The position numbers and the translations under genes were made by a program. The notes beneath the pieces are model-generated. The model worked only from the letters and a program-made list of their open reading frames with translations. It was not told the origin of the DNA and made no database searches. A stretch of DNA of 31,166 nt. It comes from a virus. The stretch spans positions 1 through 31,166 of IMG/VR virus record IMGVR_UViG_3300023276_000103. One strand, 5' to 3'. This document shows, piece by piece, positions 2,390 to 31,166 of the stretch; the first letter of the stretch is position 1, and each line of letters opens with the position of its first letter.

Positions 2390-2822
2390 AACTAAGATGT
2401 ACTTTATCTAATTCGTTGCTCATTTTTAAAAGTAGTTTTCCACTTCCATTGCAGTTTTTACATAAGTCTGTTTTTTGATATTGTGTCGCAAATATATAAG
2501 CGTAAGACTCAATCAGTAAATCAATCTCTTTGTCATTCCAAAGCTTTAAAGTTCTATTCTTAATATAATTTGAATATCTTTTATATAAATCCTCTGTAAA
2601 ACATCTAACTGGTTTGCGTCTTATTGGAAACAATTTATTTAGTTTCTGTTTACGCTCCTCACAACCACAATCGTCATTGTCTTTAAATATAGCTTTTTTA
2701 ATAACTTTAGTTAATGGTTTAATTGGTTTACTCTCCAATACATTTTCTACAACGTCGCCAAGACCTTGTGGAGTCACTTTTACTTTTGTTCCTTTTTTCT
2801 TCCTTACTTGTTTTTTTGCCAT
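2379..2822 (-). CDS. Conserved phage protein with CxC and CxxC motifs, unknown function
   Basis: A 147-residue protein with a very basic N-terminus (MAKKQVRKKKGTKVK), a GLGDVVENVLE segment, then DCGCEERKQKLNKLFP (about 52-67), an alpha-helical middle and a C-terminal CKNCNGSGK (about 121-129) like a zinc-knuckle or DnaJ-type CxxCxGxG repeat. The DCGCxxRKxKLNKLFP block recurs in Bacteroidetes phage proteins encoded near the terminase. A metal-binding or nucleic acid-binding role is plausible from the cysteines and basic tail, but is inference. Confidence 0.75.
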   Translation of the reverse strand: MAKKQVRKKKGTKVKVTPQGLGDVVENVLESKPIKPLTKVIKKAIFKDNDDCGCEERKQKLNKLFPIRRKPVRCFTEDLYKRYSNYIKNRTLKLWNDKEIDLLIESYAYIFATQYQKTDLCKNCNGSGKLLLKMSNELDKVHLSYES

Positions 2823-3286
2823 TTTAATTTACTGTTTTTATATTTATAATAATCTTCGTCTAATATTTCTTGAATGCCTAATTTTGTTTCTCTAAATACA
2901 AAGCCATAATTTATGTCGTATGTCTCTGCAATTTCTCTATTACTTCGGTCGTAACTTTCCTTAATAAATTCCAGCCTATGCCATTTAATATTTTGTGCCT
3001 TGTCTAATATCTTTTGCTCTGCGTCTGTCGGCTCAAATTGTTTCGTACTGTCTTCTATATAATAAAAACTTTCTAAACTGACTGGCTCTTTTTTTGCCTT
3101 ATTCATTTTAGCTCTAAATAAGTTTTTAAGAGTTGTAAATATATATCCAGCCGTTACGTTTTGTTTGTCCATTACCAAAAAATACATTTCTTGAGTAATA
3201 TCGTCAGCAAGTTGTTTGTCCCTATTACAAATGTAATAAGCCATTTCTCTCCACTTGCTATCGTTTTTTGCTAACTCCTTGAGCAT
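2804..3286 (-). CDS. RNA polymerase sigma factor-like protein
   Basis: With the ATG at 3286 the product has 160 residues. Residues about 18-40 (YICNRDKQLADDITQEMYFLVM) resemble sigma-70 region 2, including the DDITQE signature. Residues about 115-141 (SNREIAETYDINYGFVFRETKLGIQEI) look like the region 4 helix-turn-helix. Longer in-frame starts up to 3376 exist, but they would translate the terminator hairpin (3335-3361) and a promoter, so I reject them. As first gene of the late block, directly after its own promoter, it is a good candidate for directing host RNA polymerase to late promoters. The family is divergent; late-factor function is inferred from position. Confidence 0.75.
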   Translation of the reverse strand: MLKELAKNDSKWREMAYYICNRDKQLADDITQEMYFLVMDKQNVTAGYIFTTLKNLFRAKMNKAKKEPVSLESFYYIEDSTKQFEPTDAEQKILDKAQNIKWHRLEFIKESYDRSNREIAETYDINYGFVFRETKLGIQEILDEDYYKYKNSKLKWQKNK

Positions 3287-3301
3287 TTTATCTGACTTGT
3301 T

Positions 3302-3333
3302 CAAATTTAGGTAAAAGTTATTAACAAAACAAA
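3302..3333 (-). promoter_or_regulatory. Predicted promoter of the late block
   Basis: On the minus strand a -33 element TTTG (3330-3333) is followed after exactly 20 nt by TAAATTTG (3302-3309), matching the Bacteroidetes -7 consensus TAnnTTTG. The spacing equals that of the two early promoters in this genome. The ATG of the sigma-like gene lies 15 nt past the -7 box, so the transcript would be nearly leaderless. The -33 box overlaps the T-rich tail of the preceding terminator. Confidence 0.6.
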
Positions 3334-3361
3334 AACGCCTAAACTTGAGAGGTTTAAGCGT
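3331..3361 (-). terminator. Rho-independent terminator after the endolysin
   Basis: On the minus strand ACGCTTAAAC and GTTTAGGCGT (arms 3352-3361 and 3335-3344) pair over 10 bp with one G-U wobble and a 7-nt loop, followed by TTTTTGTTTTG. It follows the endolysin stop by about 100 nt and would end early block 2. Its T-tract runs directly into the late promoter. Confidence 0.8.
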
Positions 3362-3407
3362 CTTAAAACAAAACAAAACAAATCAACTATTTTGAAGATT
3401 TATTATT

Positions 3408-3454: not shown

Positions 3455-3463
3455 TTATCCACA
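3455..3463. promoter_or_regulatory. Perfect DnaA-box consensus TTATCCACA
   Basis: The plus strand reads TTATCCACA, an exact match to the classical DnaA box, at the right edge of the roughly 100-nt A+T-rich gap between the endolysin stop (3465) and the late terminator. The genome encodes a DnaA domain IV-like protein (8361-8924). The site could belong to a replication origin or a transcription switch. A single box is weak evidence for an origin. Confidence 0.45.
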
Positions 3464-5039: not shown

Positions 5040-5266
5040 AATTTATTGTAATGATTATTTATATACTCATTTATAACTCTTGACGCTTTTTTCTTTTCAG
5101 CTATTAATTTTTGGAAGGCCTTATCTGACTCATAAAGATTTTTTGTGTCTGGGAGTATTCTATAATCTCTAACGTCAAAATTGTCATATAAAAATTTCTC
5201 GGCTTGGATAAAATCTTGCTCTGAAATATTTATTGTGAATGATACTTTTAAGTTCTTAAATTTCAT
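5036..5266 (-). CDS. Small protein, unknown function
   Basis: I take the ATG at 5266 (76 residues, MKFKNLKVSFTINISEQDF) rather than the TTG two codons upstream. The sequence has a short beta-like N-terminus and then a charged helical stretch (DKAFQKLIAEKKKASRVINEYI). No recognised domain. It overlaps its upstream neighbour by 11 nt and its downstream neighbour by 4 nt, firmly inside the operon. Confidence 0.65.
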   Translation of the reverse strand: MKFKNLKVSFTINISEQDFIQAEKFLYDNFDVRDYRILPDTKNLYESDKAFQKLIAEKKKASRVINEYINNHYNKL

Positions 5267-5387
5267 TGTCAATTTTTTCTATAATTTCTCTTAACTCGCT
5301 TTTCTCAAATTCTCCAAGATTTATTTCTCTAATAATTATCATAAAATAATCTTCTCTTGTTTCAATACATTTAATTAATTTTTTCAT
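5256..5387 (-). CDS. Microprotein, unknown function
   Basis: A 43-codon ORF (MKKLIKCIETREDYFMIIIR...) ending in an acidic, probably helical tail (EFEKSELREIIEKIDNEI). It is led by an A-rich upstream region and overlaps the next gene by 11 nt. No recognised domain. Confidence 0.5.
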   Translation of the reverse strand: MKKLIKCIETREDYFMIIIREINLGEFEKSELREIIEKIDNEI

Positions 5388-5388
5388 T

Positions 5389-5496
5389 TTATTCTGTTTT
5401 ATTGGTTTCTATTTTGCATAAGCAACTGTCAACATTTAAAGAGCAGTCGCATATTCTCCATTGCATATTTTTATTTACAATATCTTCTTCTTTCAT
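5389..5496 (-). CDS. Cysteine-containing microprotein, unknown function
   Basis: A 35-codon ORF (MKEEDIVNKNMQWRICDCSL...) with a CDC motif and a CLC motif nine residues apart, a spacing that could bind a metal. The start overlaps the preceding stop as ATGA, which supports translation. Confidence 0.5.
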   Translation of the reverse strand: MKEEDIVNKNMQWRICDCSLNVDSCLCKIETNKTE

Positions 5497-5618
5497 AATA
5501 AAGAGGCTTCAAAACAAGTTCCAGAGCATACGCCCTTATCTTTTTCCATTGCTACTCCACATTCTGAGCATTCATACTCTGATTGTTCGTTTGGATTTAA
5601 AAAATCGTCCCAGCTCAT
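5493..5618 (-). CDS. Zinc-ribbon-like microprotein
   Basis: A 41-codon ORF (MSWDDFLNPNEQSEYECSEC...) with ECSECGVAM and then VCSGTCFE: a CxxC knuckle followed 12 residues later by CxxxC. This resembles a minimal zinc ribbon. It overlaps the next gene as ATGA. A protein- or DNA-binding accessory role is possible, but unproven. Confidence 0.55.
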   Translation of the reverse strand: MSWDDFLNPNEQSEYECSECGVAMEKDKGVCSGTCFEASLL

Positions 5619-5620
5619 AA

Positions 5621-5755
5621 CTATACGTTAAATAAAATTGATGCAAATACTCTGAATGCAAAGTAGCATAATGCAAAGATTAAAAACCACTTTGTTAATT
5701 TCTTAAATAATTTTCCAGCTTTCGCTCCGATACTTTCTTTTTTTGATTTTCTCAT
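5621..5755 (-). CDS. Single-pass membrane microprotein
   Basis: A 44-codon ORF with a strongly basic N-terminus (MRKSKKESIGAKAGKLFKK), followed by one hydrophobic segment (WFLIFALCYFAFRVFASILF, about 23-42). It begins after the AAAAACAAAACAAAATG leader. The basic N-terminus predicts it stays cytoplasmic. It might act at the host envelope or in lysis. Confidence 0.6.
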   Translation of the reverse strand: MRKSKKESIGAKAGKLFKKLTKWFLIFALCYFAFRVFASILFNV

Positions 5756-5781: not shown

Positions 5782-5799
5782 GGAGGCTTTTAAACCTCC
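5782..5799. repeat. Intergenic hairpin repeat, copy 1
   Basis: GGAGGCTTTTAAACCTCC, a 5-bp GC stem with an 8-nt loop, sits between two short genes. The same hairpin recurs at 5993-6010, 10886-10905 and 11207-11226. Here a T8 run follows on the plus strand; on the transcribed strand the following sequence is TTTAATAA, so it is a weak terminator or an RNA processing/stability element. Confidence 0.7.
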
Positions 5800-5992: not shown

Positions 5993-6010
5993 GGAGGCTT
6001 TTAAACCTCC
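5993..6010. repeat. Intergenic hairpin repeat, copy 2
   Basis: Identical 18-base core to copy 1 (5782-5799), lying just after the stop of the gene at 6020-6175 and upstream of the next gene's leader. Confidence 0.7.
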
Positions 6011-6235: not shown

Positions 6236-6280
6236 GCAATATATGTAAACATAAGTTATCCACCAAACATATTGATAACT
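6236..6280 (-). promoter_or_regulatory. Early promoter 2 with inverted-repeat operator
   Basis: On the minus strand: AGTTATC (6274-6280), 13 nt, GATAACT (6254-6260), with a TTTG -33 element (6264-6267) inside the 13-nt spacer, then after 20 nt TATATTGC (6236-6243) as the -7 element. On the plus strand the site contains TTATCCACC (6256-6264), one mismatch from a DnaA box. The whole layout is conserved at 11957-12001. Confidence 0.7.
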
Positions 6281-6288
6281 TTTTTTAT

Positions 6289-6696
6289 TTAATAGTCAGT
6301 AATTATTTCTTGTATCAAGTTTTTAAGTCTATTAATTATCTTCTCGTCTTTAAATTTTTCCATTATTTCCTCGTACTCTTTAATCTCTGGTTTTATATTA
6401 TGTATTTCAATCTGTTTTAATTCGGTAGCAAACAGATAATAACTCTCCTCCAGACTTATTTTAAGATTGCGTAGTATGTTATCAATAGACAATTTATAGT
6501 TTCCCTCTGTTCTTATTATTTCGCTCTTAAAATAGCCTATAAACAGTTTTGCAAATAGTAAATTTTTATCAATGATTGGCTCTTGTATTTTATTATAATA
6601 TTTTATAATATTTTTTAAAGCAATTTCGTCTTGAACATTCATTTTTCTGCCAACGTTTCTAGCAGTCATTAATTGATTTATGTCTTGTCTTGTCAT
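6289..6696 (-). CDS. Helical protein, unknown function, end of early block 1
   Basis: A 135-residue protein that starts in a TAATG overlap with the ATPase gene, so the two are probably coupled. It appears all-helical, with charged C-terminal helices (EIKEYEEIMEKFKDEKIINRLK). No recognised domain or motif. Position after the replicative ATPase suggests a replication accessory such as a loader or ssDNA-associated factor, but nothing in the sequence proves this. Confidence 0.7.
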   Translation of the reverse strand: MTRQDINQLMTARNVGRKMNVQDEIALKNIIKYYNKIQEPIIDKNLLFAKLFIGYFKSEIIRTEGNYKLSIDNILRNLKISLEESYYLFATELKQIEIHNIKPEIKEYEEIMEKFKDEKIINRLKNLIQEIITDY

Positions 6697-7550
6697 TATG
6701 TAAACATTGTTTTTAAATTATCATCAATTGTGTCCTCGCTGATATATGGTAGCCAGTCATTATTTATTCTTATTGTAAAATCTGCAAATTTCATATCGCC
6801 TCTTGACCTCCTACATTTTACGCTTGAAAATTCTCCCTCGTCTTTAACTAAAATTACATTTTCACATTTTTGCTGGAGCATAGTTCCCAAATGACCTCTT
6901 GACTTTTGGCTATTTGGATTGACGTGGACAACTCCAGAAATATGACATTTAGTTAAACTACTATATTTCATAAGTAAACCAATAAATTCGGAGCATTCGT
7001 GCTGACTGTTAAAGTCTTTTATAAAATCGACAAATCCGTCCAGCATTACAAAACCTAGATTATCTTTATATTCGCTTTCCATAAATAAATAATGCAGTAA
7101 TTCTAATCGTTCGTCAATGCTTTTTTCTCGCCATTTAAACATTTTATAAACAGTTGGAAATCCTCCAGCCATTTCTGGCACTCTTTTACCATTTAACCAA
7201 ACATCGTATGCACTTTGCTCCGTATCTATTGAAAATATATATTTATTTGGGTTTAAATGTCCAACGAGTAAGTCGTTTGTGTAATTATTTGCTCTGCCTC
7301 CAACGATTGACGCCTCAATTAAACTCTTTAAAAATGATTTTCGGCTTTTTTCTTCTCCCATAATCATTGATAAATTGCCCTCGCTCATAACTTTTATTGG
7401 ATTGTTGTTATAATTGTTACGTCCACAACTTAAAATAATTGGTGGCTTTTTAATTTTCTCGTTTAGATTTACAATGGTATTTTCAAAATCTAAAGCTGGT
7501 GTTTTTTTCTGATAATCTATTTCGTAATTATCTATTATTTGTTTTGTCAT
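6696..7550 (-). CDS. RecA/RepA-type ATPase, probable replication helicase or AAA ATPase
   Basis: A 284-residue RecA-fold ATPase. GEEKSRKSFLKS (65-76) is a Walker A variant with G-x-x-x-x-x-K-S; FSIDTE (106-111) matches the strand after the first helix in RepA/DnaB-like domains; LGFVMLDGFVDF (165-176) is Walker B; VVHVNPNSQKSRGHLG (207-222) matches the sensor/loop region. Related single-domain RepA-like ATPases are replicative helicases or ATPases of plasmids and phages. It overlaps the winged-helix replication protein by 23 nt and follows the DnaA-like gene, completing a plausible initiation set. Confidence 0.8.
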   Translation of the reverse strand: MTKQIIDNYEIDYQKKTPALDFENTIVNLNEKIKKPPIILSCGRNNYNNNPIKVMSEGNLSMIMGEEKSRKSFLKSLIEASIVGGRANNYTNDLLVGHLNPNKYIFSIDTEQSAYDVWLNGKRVPEMAGGFPTVYKMFKWREKSIDERLELLHYLFMESEYKDNLGFVMLDGFVDFIKDFNSQHECSEFIGLLMKYSSLTKCHISGVVHVNPNSQKSRGHLGTMLQQKCENVILVKDEGEFSSVKCRRSRGDMKFADFTIRINNDWLPYISEDTIDDNLKTMFT

Positions 7551-8208
7551 ATAATTGGGTTTTAGATTTGTAAGCTGAATAGTATTTCTGAAAACTTTCT
7601 TCCTTTAAAAAATGGTCTGGTGTTTCTAGTGTGATTGGTAATTTGTTTTTTTGCATATAAAAGCCTTTTAAGGCTTGAATAATGTTTTGTTTGCCGTAAG
7701 ATATACAAAGTTTTTTAAATGCCTTGTGTTGATGCTCTGCTAATTTTAAAATATATGATTTTGGGCTTAATTCTTTCCAGTGTTTTAAGAATTCTTTTTC
7801 ACTATATCCCTCTTTGCCATATTTTATTTTTTGAACATCTGTTTTTTCAAATTCTGGCTCTGGACATATATATATATTATTATTATTTATATTATTATCT
7901 TTAAAGTTTTCTTCTATACCCTCTATAATAATTGTTATATACCTATTAAGGATTTCTTTAGTACCATTTTTATATACTATTTTCCTTTCAACATAGCCAT
8001 ATTTAACTAAATTACTTATCCAGTTGCTTACGCTTTGAGTTGTTACGTCATATAGCTTTGCAAAATAGCTATTGGAGGCAAAACATTTTCCAGTTTTGTT
8101 AGTCAATGCCGTTATTTCAGCGTATAAAAGTTTCTCGTTTGGTTTCAGTCGGTTGTCATATCTTACCTTTGCTGGTAAAATAGCATAATAGTTTGGTGTT
8201 TCATTCAT
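7528..8208 (-). CDS. Winged-helix replication initiation protein
   Basis: A 226-residue protein whose N-terminus follows the HTH_36/replisome-organiser pattern: YYAILPAKVRYDNRLKPNEK (7-26), LLYAEITALTNKTGKCFASN, then the helix-turn-helix YFAKLYDVTTQSVSNWISNL (48-67) and wing VKYGYVERKIV. A low-complexity Asn-rich linker (about residues 104-110) leads to a C-terminal helical domain with KEFLKHWKELSP and PDHFLKEESFQKYY, like DnaD/RepO-type helicase-loading regions. It sits directly upstream of the ATPase gene. It probably binds the phage origin and recruits the ATPase. Confidence 0.8.
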   Translation of the reverse strand: MNETPNYYAILPAKVRYDNRLKPNEKLLYAEITALTNKTGKCFASNSYFAKLYDVTTQSVSNWISNLVKYGYVERKIVYKNGTKEILNRYITIIIEGIEENFKDNNINNNNIYICPEPEFEKTDVQKIKYGKEGYSEKEFLKHWKELSPKSYILKLAEHQHKAFKKLCISYGKQNIIQALKGFYMQKNKLPITLETPDHFLKEESFQKYYSAYKSKTQLYDKTNNR

Positions 8209-8217
8209 TTGTTTTGT

Positions 8218-8361
8218 TTAAAAATCGAGCGTCAAAGTTACAATAAATAAATATATAGATATTGTTCTGTAATTAAATTCTTGAGTAGGCTGGATAACTT
8301 CCCAACCTACCAAAAATCTATCGTGAGGATAATGAAATTGTATTGTTAGTTCCCAATTCAT
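8218..8361 (-). CDS. Conserved phage microprotein (HYPHDR...VGWE motif)
   Basis: A 47-codon ORF whose ATG overlaps the preceding stop as TAATG. It reads MNWELTIQFHYPHDRFLVGW and then NYRTISIYLFIVTLTLDF. The combination of YPHDR, GWE and a terminal hydrophobic beta-like segment recurs in small proteins of Bacteroidetes phages, so I regard it as a real conserved gene. The function is not known; the last 20 residues could insert in a membrane. Confidence 0.75.
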   Translation of the reverse strand: MNWELTIQFHYPHDRFLVGWEVIQPTQEFNYRTISIYLFIVTLTLDF

Positions 8362-8924
8362 TATAATACTCCTCTTGCGTCTGTCACATTATTGCCACAA
8401 TTAATAACCTCTCCCTTTTGATTTTGTTTTTTCCATTTAAGGCTTTTTAAAAACAATCCAGCTCTTTCGTCATAATCCATTTTTTGCTCTTTGGTTAATG
8501 TTCTATATTCTTTCTCGTTTTTAGTTAAGCCTCCAGCCATACTATTAACAATTCTTTCAAGCTCTGCGACATTATCTAATTGCTTATTTAATTGATTTGT
8601 CAATCGTTGAATTTCAATGCTCTCCTCGTCTGTAAAGTCAATTACTTCCGTATTGTAAAGAGCCATATATTTTTTATATAAATTTCTATATTTCTCCAAA
8701 CTCATCATATATTCAAAAGTATTATTTCTTGAATGTATAATAGTTGAATGGTCTCTGTCCACAACTTTAGCAATTTTTATTGTGCTTTCGCTTGTTAAGT
8801 CTAAAGCCAGTTTATAATACAATACTCTAAATAAAACTATTGGTCTATGTCTGCTCCTAGTTGAAATATCAACTCCAGCCTCTTGGTCTAAATGGTTTTT
8901 AAGATTTATTAATGTCTTGTTCAT
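8361..8924 (-). CDS. DnaA domain IV-like DNA-binding protein
   Basis: A 187-residue protein. Residues about 22-70 resemble DnaA domain IV: RSRHRPIVLFRVLYYKLALD, then STIKIAKVVDRDHSTIIHSR, with the DRDHSTIIH signature that reads the DnaA box in the bacterial protein. There is no AAA+ ATPase domain. The remainder is helical, with a coiled-coil-like LTNQLNKQLDNVAELERIVN and a basic segment. It may bind DnaA boxes without forming the ATP-driven filament, acting as an origin binder, a competitor of host DnaA or a transcription regulator. Three TTATCCAC(A/C) sites in the genome's intergenic regions are candidate targets. Confidence 0.75.
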   Translation of the reverse strand: MNKTLINLKNHLDQEAGVDISTRSRHRPIVLFRVLYYKLALDLTSESTIKIAKVVDRDHSTIIHSRNNTFEYMMSLEKYRNLYKKYMALYNTEVIDFTDEESIEIQRLTNQLNKQLDNVAELERIVNSMAGGLTKNEKEYRTLTKEQKMDYDERAGLFLKSLKWKKQNQKGEVINCGNNVTDARGVL

Positions 8925-9294
8925 ATTTAATTATTTGATTGTTTAAATGTTTTAGTAATTCCTCTTTTTCAAATTTATGCAATTTACTTATACTATTTGC
9001 TTTTAAAGTAAGATTATCTATATAATCAGTTCCTTTGTATTTTTCCAGCCATTTAACAAACTCTAAAGGCGTTTTGTGTGCTGAAAATGTACTGCTAAAA
9101 GTGTGATGTCCAACGCATAAGCAAATACCATTTTTTACGTCCCAACGGACGCTCCTTTTACTTCTGGAATAAATATGATGCGAGTTTAAATAGGTTGTTT
9201 TACCACAATATTCGCATTTGTTTCCAGCACGTAATTTGACCAATTTACTCCAAGCGATGTCAAGTTTTCCGTCAACTCCTTTTAGTTTTTTCAT
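8899..9294 (-). CDS. HNH-like nuclease, NinG/Rap-type
   Basis: A 131-residue protein with a zinc-finger HNH arrangement: KCEYCGKTT (26-34), LNSHHIYSRSKRSVRWDVKNG (36-56) with the His-His and Asn of the ββα core, and CLCVGHHTFS (58-67). The layout matches phage proteins annotated as NinG/recombination or HNH endonucleases. It overlaps the DnaA-like gene by 26 nt and touches its upstream neighbour in a TAATG overlap. A role in recombination or junction processing during replication is inferred from family and context. Confidence 0.75.
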   Translation of the reverse strand: MKKLKGVDGKLDIAWSKLVKLRAGNKCEYCGKTTYLNSHHIYSRSKRSVRWDVKNGICLCVGHHTFSSTFSAHKTPLEFVKWLEKYKGTDYIDNLTLKANSISKLHKFEKEELLKHLNNQIIKYEQDINKS

Positions 9295-10885: not shown

Positions 10886-10905
10886 GGGAGGCTTTTAAAC
10901 CTCCC
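10886..10905. repeat. Intergenic hairpin repeat, copy 3
   Basis: GGGAGGCTTTTAAACCTCCC: 6-bp GC stem and 8-nt loop between the stop at 10923 and the leader of the gene starting at 10860. Confidence 0.75.
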
Positions 10906-10922
10906 TTGTTAATTTTATTATT

Positions 10923-11180
10923 TTATTTCCAACTGTTTGGTGTTCCTACAATGTCAGCACCTTTATAAGTAAGACACCACATTTTAATTCCATCTTCGTC
11001 TGTAAAATTTTCGTAACTGTTATAAATTAAATCTTTTTTAATTAAATTAGCCAATACTCCTGCCCTTGATTTTGTAATTACATCTTCGTTTGTGAAATCG
11101 CTATGTCCTTCTTCGTTTTGGTCAAATTTAATTTCGTTTAATAATTCTAATTCTTTTACTGTTAATTTAATAGTTTTCAT
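10923..11180 (-). CDS. Small protein, possibly winged-helix, unknown function
   Basis: An 85-residue protein with MKTIKLTVKELELLNEIKFD at the N-terminus, an ITKSRAGVLANLIKKDLI helix-like segment (about 35-52), and a beta-like end (MWCLTYKGADIV). The order of helices followed by a hairpin is compatible with a winged-helix fold like those in small phage regulators, but the match is loose. Confidence 0.6.
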   Translation of the reverse strand: MKTIKLTVKELELLNEIKFDQNEEGHSDFTNEDVITKSRAGVLANLIKKDLIYNSYENFTDEDGIKMWCLTYKGADIVGTPNSWK

Positions 11181-11206: not shown

Positions 11207-11226
11207 GGGAGGCTTTTAAACCTCCC
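11207..11226. repeat. Intergenic hairpin repeat, copy 4
   Basis: Identical to copy 3, followed on the transcribed strand by ATTAATAACCTTAAAAACAA and then CAAAATG, the composite leader used repeatedly in this block. Confidence 0.75.
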
Positions 11227-11956: not shown

Positions 11957-12001
11957 GCAATATAGAAAGAATATAGTTATCCACCAAATGTATTGATAAC
12001 T
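11957..12001 (-). promoter_or_regulatory. Early promoter 1 with inverted-repeat operator
   Basis: Minus strand order: AGTTATC (11995-12001), 13-nt spacer holding TTTG (-33, 11985-11988), GATAACT (11975-11981), and TATATTGC (-7, 11957-11964) exactly 20 nt after the TTTG. On the plus strand TTATCCACC (11977-11985) is a one-mismatch DnaA box. The same elements with the same spacings are at 6236-6280 although the bases between them differ. Confidence 0.7.
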
Positions 12002-30031: not shown

Positions 30032-30505
30032 TTAAGATGCCTTTTTCTGTATGATATACCATTGTGTTCCGTCACTCCAAACTTGTATTCCCTCGTATGC
30101 CTTATTTATAACATAAGCATTTGTACTTCCGTCTAAAGTCTGTCCTAAAATTGGCGTTAGATTTACTCTTGTTGAGGTTGCAAAACTATCGTTTGAAATA
30201 AATCTTATTACTCTATTTACATTTATACTGTCCGTTGCGTCTGGTAGGTTTAAAGTCATAGTACCATTTGAGCCATTCCAAGTCAATCTTATCATATCTG
30301 CAAACTGATAAGTAGCATCGTTGAGGTTTACAACCTCATCTGGAATAACTGTTAAGTCAGTAGGAGTTATATAGTTTCGTGTTGCGTAATTTCTTACGTC
30401 ATTTAACGTGCTTTTTTTAGTTGTGCCTCCTTGGACCACTGCTAATTCTTCTGTGCCTTGTAAAGTGGACGCTTGAGGTAATTCTGATATTTTTAAATTT
30501 GCCAT
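30032..30505 (-). CDS. Fibre-base or tail-associated protein
   Basis: A 157-residue protein starting MANLKISELPQASTLQGTEE and LAVVQGGTTKKSTLNDVRNY, an N-terminal motif frequent in phage fibre and virion proteins. The rest (RLTWNGSNGTMTLNLPDATD and later IQVWSDGTQWYIIQKKA) is a beta-rich domain that recurs in fibre tips. It lies in a cluster of tail completion genes, with 1-nt overlap upstream and none downstream. It may be an additional fibre or decoration protein. Confidence 0.6.
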   Translation of the reverse strand: MANLKISELPQASTLQGTEELAVVQGGTTKKSTLNDVRNYATRNYITPTDLTVIPDEVVNLNDATYQFADMIRLTWNGSNGTMTLNLPDATDSINVNRVIRFISNDSFATSTRVNLTPILGQTLDGSTNAYVINKAYEGIQVWSDGTQWYIIQKKAS

Positions 30506-31023: not shown

Positions 31024-31166
31024 TATAATTCTATTGCGTTATTTCCTCGTCTCAACTTTTCTTCTTGAGTCATTTTATCAAATTTGTGTGCTAAAAAAGT
31101 GTGCATTTGATGTACTGGTATTTTAAAAACTTTTTCCATATTTAATAAATTGTCATCTGCTAACAT
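31023..31166 (-). CDS. C-terminal -1 frame extension of the tail chaperone (or 47-aa ORF)
   Basis: Read as a separate ORF, the ATG at 31166 (identical to 127 in the left copy) gives 47 residues: MLADDNLLNMEKVFKIPVHQ, then MHTFLAHKFDKM. The same frame is open upstream across the cut for another 204 nt (down from 331 to 127 in window coordinates) with no ATG, including RYFEKWGWYATIV just before this Met. That segment looks like genuine protein, so I favour production as a -1 frameshift fusion of the 127-738 gene (about 251 residues). The stop overlaps the start of the tail completion-like gene (TAATG). Confidence 0.6.
   Translation of the reverse strand: MLADDNLLNMEKVFKIPVHQMHTFLAHKFDKMTQEEKLRRGNNAIEL
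31040..31166. repeat. Terminal direct repeat, right copy (assembly overlap)
   Basis: Identical to 1-127. See the left copy. Confidence 0.9.

Follow-up and report, generated by a model that had tools for sequence, protein, structure and literature searches.

A standalone DnaA domain IV-like protein in the replication module of a phage and a putative dyad operator at two of its promoters

Domain IV of DnaA (PF08299) reads TnCACA with its recognition helix, while residue R399 reads TTA from the minor groove (PMC5742627). Proteins with a single DnaA domain IV are already annotated in many flavophages and represent a known kind (e.g. P12002L gp46, Olleya phage Harreka_1 gp24, Flavobacterium phage mumin9-1 gp28, and I6RTB7 of Nonlabens phage P12024L), and we found no functional study of these standalone proteins in the open-access literature. 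Plasmid and phage initiators of the RepE/RepA type are autoregulated through inverted-repeat operators. Among flavobacterial promoters, the SM5 motif of Flavobacterium psychrophilum (TAnnTTGY), located at −12 to −5, most likely belongs to an alternative sigma factor (PMC9723704).

The viral DNA analyzed here (31,166 nucleotides; hereafter the window) encodes a single-domain protein of the same sort, DnaA-IV (Table 1), on the minus strand, opposite a plus strand that is interrupted by many stop codons. The protein scores 33.0 bits against Pfam Bac_DnaA_C (PF08299), i.e. above the curated cut-off of 31.5 bits, and neither Pfam nor NCBIfam finds an AAA+ ATPase domain III in it, so it is not a full DnaA initiator. 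An HTH domain (approximately residues 1–92) is predicted to be followed by two long helices (99–141 and 145–168). The AlphaFold (AF2) model has a mean pLDDT of 69, with blocks of the HTH domain at 61–89, and its best PDB matches in Foldseek are complexes of the DnaA DNA-binding domain with DNA (3pvp and 1j1v, target TM 0.75–0.76). PDB ranks 1–7 are all DnaA, with probabilities of 0.97–1.00 and E-values of only 0.027 to 0.4. A profile of seven phage relatives likewise retrieves DnaA alone among PDB chains, and we regard matches of the protein to clathrin adaptors in Pfam and PDB as chance.

Equivalents of E. coli R399, R407, D433, H434, T436, and H439 are kept in DnaA-IV, and T435 is replaced by Ser60. 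Specifically, R399 corresponds to R25, D433 to D58, H434 to H59, and T436 to T61; the DRDHSTIIH signature spans residues 56–64, and R25, H59, and T61 are invariant across the seven phage proteins. Judging from sequence and predicted structure, the ORF product is thus a genuine standalone DnaA domain IV with most DNA-reading residues kept. The preliminary description, which had seen a DnaA domain IV-like protein without AAA+ domain and had proposed a DnaA C-terminal profile search and structure prediction as checks, agrees with the outcome of both. Compared with DnaA itself (1j1v, 3pvp), the fold and most contact residues are common to the two proteins, whereas the phage protein lacks the AAA+ and N-terminal domains, carries an extra helical C-terminus, and has a putative target site.

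Table 1. Coordinates of the features discussed, in window positions
Feature	Position	Strand	Basis or remark
Isolated TTATCCACA	3455..3463	plus	begins just past endolysin stop codon; without dyad
P1 promoter, TTTG-N20-TATATTGC	6236..6267	minus	promoter elements
P1 dyad AGTTAT-N15-ATAACT, putative operator, contains TTATCCACC	6254..6280	minus	inverted repeat and conservation
284-aa downstream module protein	6696..7550	minus	translation; 97–99% identical in G1–G3
HTH_36 replication initiation protein	7528..8208	minus	Pfam HTH_36 7e-14; PHROG replication initiation 1.8e-30
Standalone DnaA domain IV-like protein (DnaA-IV), 187 aa	8361..8924	minus	Pfam, Foldseek, profile, AF2
NinG/HNH-type endonuclease, overlaps DnaA-IV gene	8899..9294	minus	PHROG NinG/Rap 4.9e-11
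P2 promoter, TTTG-N20-TATATTGC (TAnnTTGY type), heads operon with DnaA-IV	11957..11988	minus	promoter elements; PMC9723704
P2 dyad AGTTAT-N15-ATAACT, putative operator, contains TTATCCACC	11975..12001	minus	inverted repeat and conservation

Three viral contigs (G1–G3) encode DnaA-IV proteins that are 95–99% identical to this one (97–99% in G1 and G2). A further contig, L012, was added to the group through a scan for the dyad pattern described below; it ends before the position orthologous to the DnaA-IV gene. L012 also carries a second, divergent DnaA-IV paralogue of 160 aa beside the endolysin (5254–5736, minus strand; 40.2 bits in Pfam).

Transcription of the DnaA-IV gene from P2 (i.e. the promoter at 11977) is plausible from the gene arrangement, given that the genes are co-directional, many with overlapping ends; the stretch between P2 and the gene showed no second strong TTTG/TAnnTT promoter. 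The −7 element of both P1 and P2 is TATATTGC, rather than TAnnTTTG, and a TATATTGC or TAAATTGC box is present at all dyad sites. Because the closing element of P1 and P2 is a TAnnTTGY sequence, as in the SM5 motif, their label as early sigma-A promoters is unproven. The likeness to the SM5 class is one of motif letters: F. psychrophilum SM5 promoters and the phage promoters have the −7 TAnnTTGY in common, and the phage ones add a dyad around TTTG.

The preliminary description had connected DnaA-IV with three DnaA-box-like 9-mers, TTATCCAC(A/C), as one set of sites. The window does contain exactly three matches to this pattern (TTATCCACM; at 3455, 6256, and 11977), all non-coding and outside likely genes, compared with a mean of 0.42 in the shuffled window, where 1 of 100 shuffles gives three. 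Both promoter sites (6256–6264 and 11977–11985, plus strand) read TTATCCACC, and the overlap with the −33 elements that had been claimed for them exists but amounts to one base shared with each TTTG (6264–6267 and 11985–11988). These two sites lie inside a duplicated 114-bp cassette, the copies of which are 81% identical (repeat family D5), and hence they are not independent occurrences. The site at 3455 reads TTATAAACA in G2, TTATGCACA in G3, and TTATCCACA in L012; since it differs among relatives and has no dyad, we judge from these sequences that it falls outside the operator set.

The box core also varies at the orthologous promoter sites, with TTATAAACC at P1 of G1 and G2, and TTATACACC at P2 of G3. 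A DnaA-box set (TTATNCACA) would retain its core in relatives that have the protein, but the core is lost at P1 of G1 and G2 and at the 3455 site of G2. Nor is TTATNCACA enriched in the window, with 1 copy seen vs 2.3 expected. With one member devoid of a dyad and with variable promoter cores, the grouping of the three 9-mers into one DnaA-box set is not supported, and relatives that keep the gene but have lost the box core exist for P1 (G1 and G2) as well as for P2 (G3). In G2 (L056), the right arm of P1 (TTATAAACC, 7176–7200) and the post-endolysin site (TTATAAACA, ~9440) carry the same CC-to-AA change, which may be chance.

At each promoter, the 9-mer forms one of the two arms of a 27-bp dyad, with the −33 TTTG enclosed between them. 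Its perfect inverted repeat, GTTATC-N13-GATAAC, is found twice in the window (6255–6279 and 11976–12000), with 0.05 expected. At seven distinct sites from five closely related phages, a small set of genomes of which some are fragments, the arms AGTTAT and ATAACT are invariant, and the invariant columns read AAAAAAGTTAT.AAT...TTTGGT..ATAACT..........TA.ATTGC. The ATAACT arm is thus kept within the −33/−7 spacer, while all ten spacer bases that follow it vary. As the arms and TTTGGT are invariant and the DnaA-box core is not, the conserved element is the dyad and not the 9-mer, and the DnaA-box look of the 9-mers appears to come from the right arm and the preceding −33 bases. A shared, conserved element that resembles a protein-binding site does exist at the two promoters, which supports the preliminary description in part, but the reading of this element as a DnaA box is not supported; its symmetric, conserved arms overlap promoter elements, as in a dyad promoter operator.

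The dyad has so far been seen only in this phage group, as far as sequence scans can tell. A scan of the GTDB collection (84,980 bacterial and archaeal species) gave no match, the bacterial genomes also yielding no relatives by protein or by dyad, and no dyad in a matching promoter context was found in viral contigs outside the group. Dyad matches in L009, L010, L064–L076, and L078–L081 lack a matching promoter context, and we consider them chance or unrelated. In G3, the P1 cassette is present twice, in versions that differ from each other, at opposite contig ends (L058 63–87, and the end of L059, G3 30480–30504); duplication of this promoter cassette seems to occur easily.

The gene itself keeps company with replication genes (Table 1). 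The 284-aa protein of the module is probably a P-loop ATPase, judged by eye from GEEKSRKS, and has no family match in Pfam or PHROG. DnaA-IV-like ORFs are present in 12 of 39 viral loci that encode relatives of the HTH_36 initiator, three of these loci being the close relatives. In eight others (L021, L022, L026–L030, and L032), the ORF ends at the start codon of the initiator gene, and in L021 and L026 the sequence itself shows the two genes overlapping by 4 bases; initiator-adjacent proteins score below the Pfam cut-off (15.7–27 bits in the three tested). This conserved overlap suggests a replication role for DnaA-IV. Polaribacter phage P12002L has the same neighborhood as this phage—i.e. 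NinG, a DnaA-type initiation protein, and a primosomal protein in that order. The remaining 27 initiator relatives have no DnaA-IV within the available flanks, and DnaA-IV is therefore not an obligate partner of the initiator.

Several other carriers of such a gene are without the promoter features altogether. Specifically, no promoter box or dyad of the P1/P2 type was found in the scanned loci L021, L022, L026, and L029, and, in contrast to this phage, the genomes of P12024S, P12002L, mumin9-1, and Harreka_1 contain no promoter box, promoter-placed TTATCCACM, or dyad of this type. Given these relatives and the replication genes around it, the DnaA-IV gene travels with the replication genes rather than with promoter boxes. 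An origin was not located in the window, and GC skew keeps one sign. The window ends (1–127 and 31040–31166) form an exact 127-base repeat, so that the contig probably represents an entire circular map of ~31,039 bases. The predicted structure of a 135-aa protein adjoining P1 (6289–6696) was uninformative (pLDDT 45).

We favor, at a probability of about 0.5, a reading where DnaA-IV assists the replication module as an accessory DNA-binding protein, and the dyad separately serves as operator for a phage regulator. DnaA-IV would act in replication initiation of the phage, next to the HTH_36 initiator and the likely ATPase, where it probably helps initiator loading or marks the phage origin. P2, in front of this module, and its copy P1 would be controlled via the dyad. 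With their centers 21 bp apart (i.e. two helical turns, on one helix face), the half-sites lie on either side of the −33 element, an arrangement that fits a dimeric repressor; a dimer bound there would keep RNA polymerase out and shut off the two operons jointly.

Candidate binders of the dyad that are conserved and have a recognized DNA-binding domain are the HTH_36 initiator, DnaA-IV, and a sigma-like ORF (2804–3376), the first two being kept in G1–G3 and the third wherever its region is covered. Several small proteins without a recognized fold, also conserved, are possible further candidates. Binding by HTH_36 would amount to autoregulation, by analogy with plasmid Rep proteins; in RepE/RepA-type systems the replication operon likewise has a dyad over its promoter, although no iterons are seen in this phage. 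A ParB_N protein and a small ORF at 10923–11180 (winged-helix-like by eye) were rejected as binders, the former being missing from G2 and L012 and the latter from all relatives. The dyad thus represents a compact candidate regulatory switch with few candidate binders.

One point in favor of DnaA-IV as the binder is that the arms of the dyad correspond to TTAT, a sequence that is read by DnaA domain IV as well, through R399 in the minor groove (PMC5742627), so that part of the pattern fits. We keep as a tentative alternative that DnaA-IV, dimerized by its C-terminal helices, binds the dyad as it accumulates and represses both P2, i.e. its own operon, and P1, thus tying replication to shut-off. 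The protein is one of only three dyad-conserved ones with a recognized DNA-binding domain, has invariant R25, H59, and T61 and a long predicted helical C-terminus, and the TTATC arms match a DnaA box in its 5′ half. However, none of the phages has a CACA core in the left half-site, TTATCAATR, the right half-site has lost its core at P1 of G1 and G2 even though their proteins are 97–99% identical, gene-bearing relatives exist without the dyad, and the usual target of DnaA domain IV is a non-palindromic 9-mer. The broader proposition, that a DnaA domain IV which has parted from its ATPase and gained a dimerizing helical tail became a dimeric repressor at symmetric TTAT half-sites of two promoters, coupling replication to shut-off of two operons, is in our view doubtful.

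The competition with host DnaA raised in the preliminary description is a bare possibility. In a decoy reading, DnaA-IV would occupy DnaA boxes of the host oriC and block host initiation. A protein that has the DNA-reading domain but neither AAA+ nor domain I does resemble a dominant-negative DnaA, but the gene lies within the replication module of the phage, related genes overlap that of the phage initiator, and the sequence contains no hint of the host origin, making a decoy unlikely. DnaA also acts as a transcription factor, and host DnaA could bind TTATCCACC, which matches 8 of 9 positions of the consensus TTATCCACA, to repress or time P1 and P2 and thereby let the phage sense the replication state of the host. 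Single imperfect DnaA boxes are bound weakly, however, and with C as the final base at all TTATCCACC sites, a core lost in natural variants, and the lack of TTATNCACA enrichment, we find such sensing highly improbable. That the dyads are plus-strand intrinsic terminators rather than protein sites has next to no likelihood, for although a T run follows each dyad on that strand and the RNA folds at −5.3 and −4.4 kcal/mol, the A+T-rich stems are weak (z-scores −2.0 and −0.9), plus-strand genes are absent here, and the A-tract fits an upstream promoter element.

Further sequence features of note lie elsewhere in the window. An intrinsic terminator (3364–3332) is directly followed by a sigma-A-type promoter, TTTG-N20-TAAATTTG (3302–3333), ahead of the sigma-70-region-like ORF and the terminase genes, and terminator and promoter together (3302–3364) possibly form a late-gene switch. 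Four near-identical hairpins, (G)GGAGGCTTTTAAACCTCC(C), are found in the leaders of small genes (5782–5799, 5993–6010, 10886–10905, and 11207–11226), next to a repeated CATTTTGTTTTG leader.
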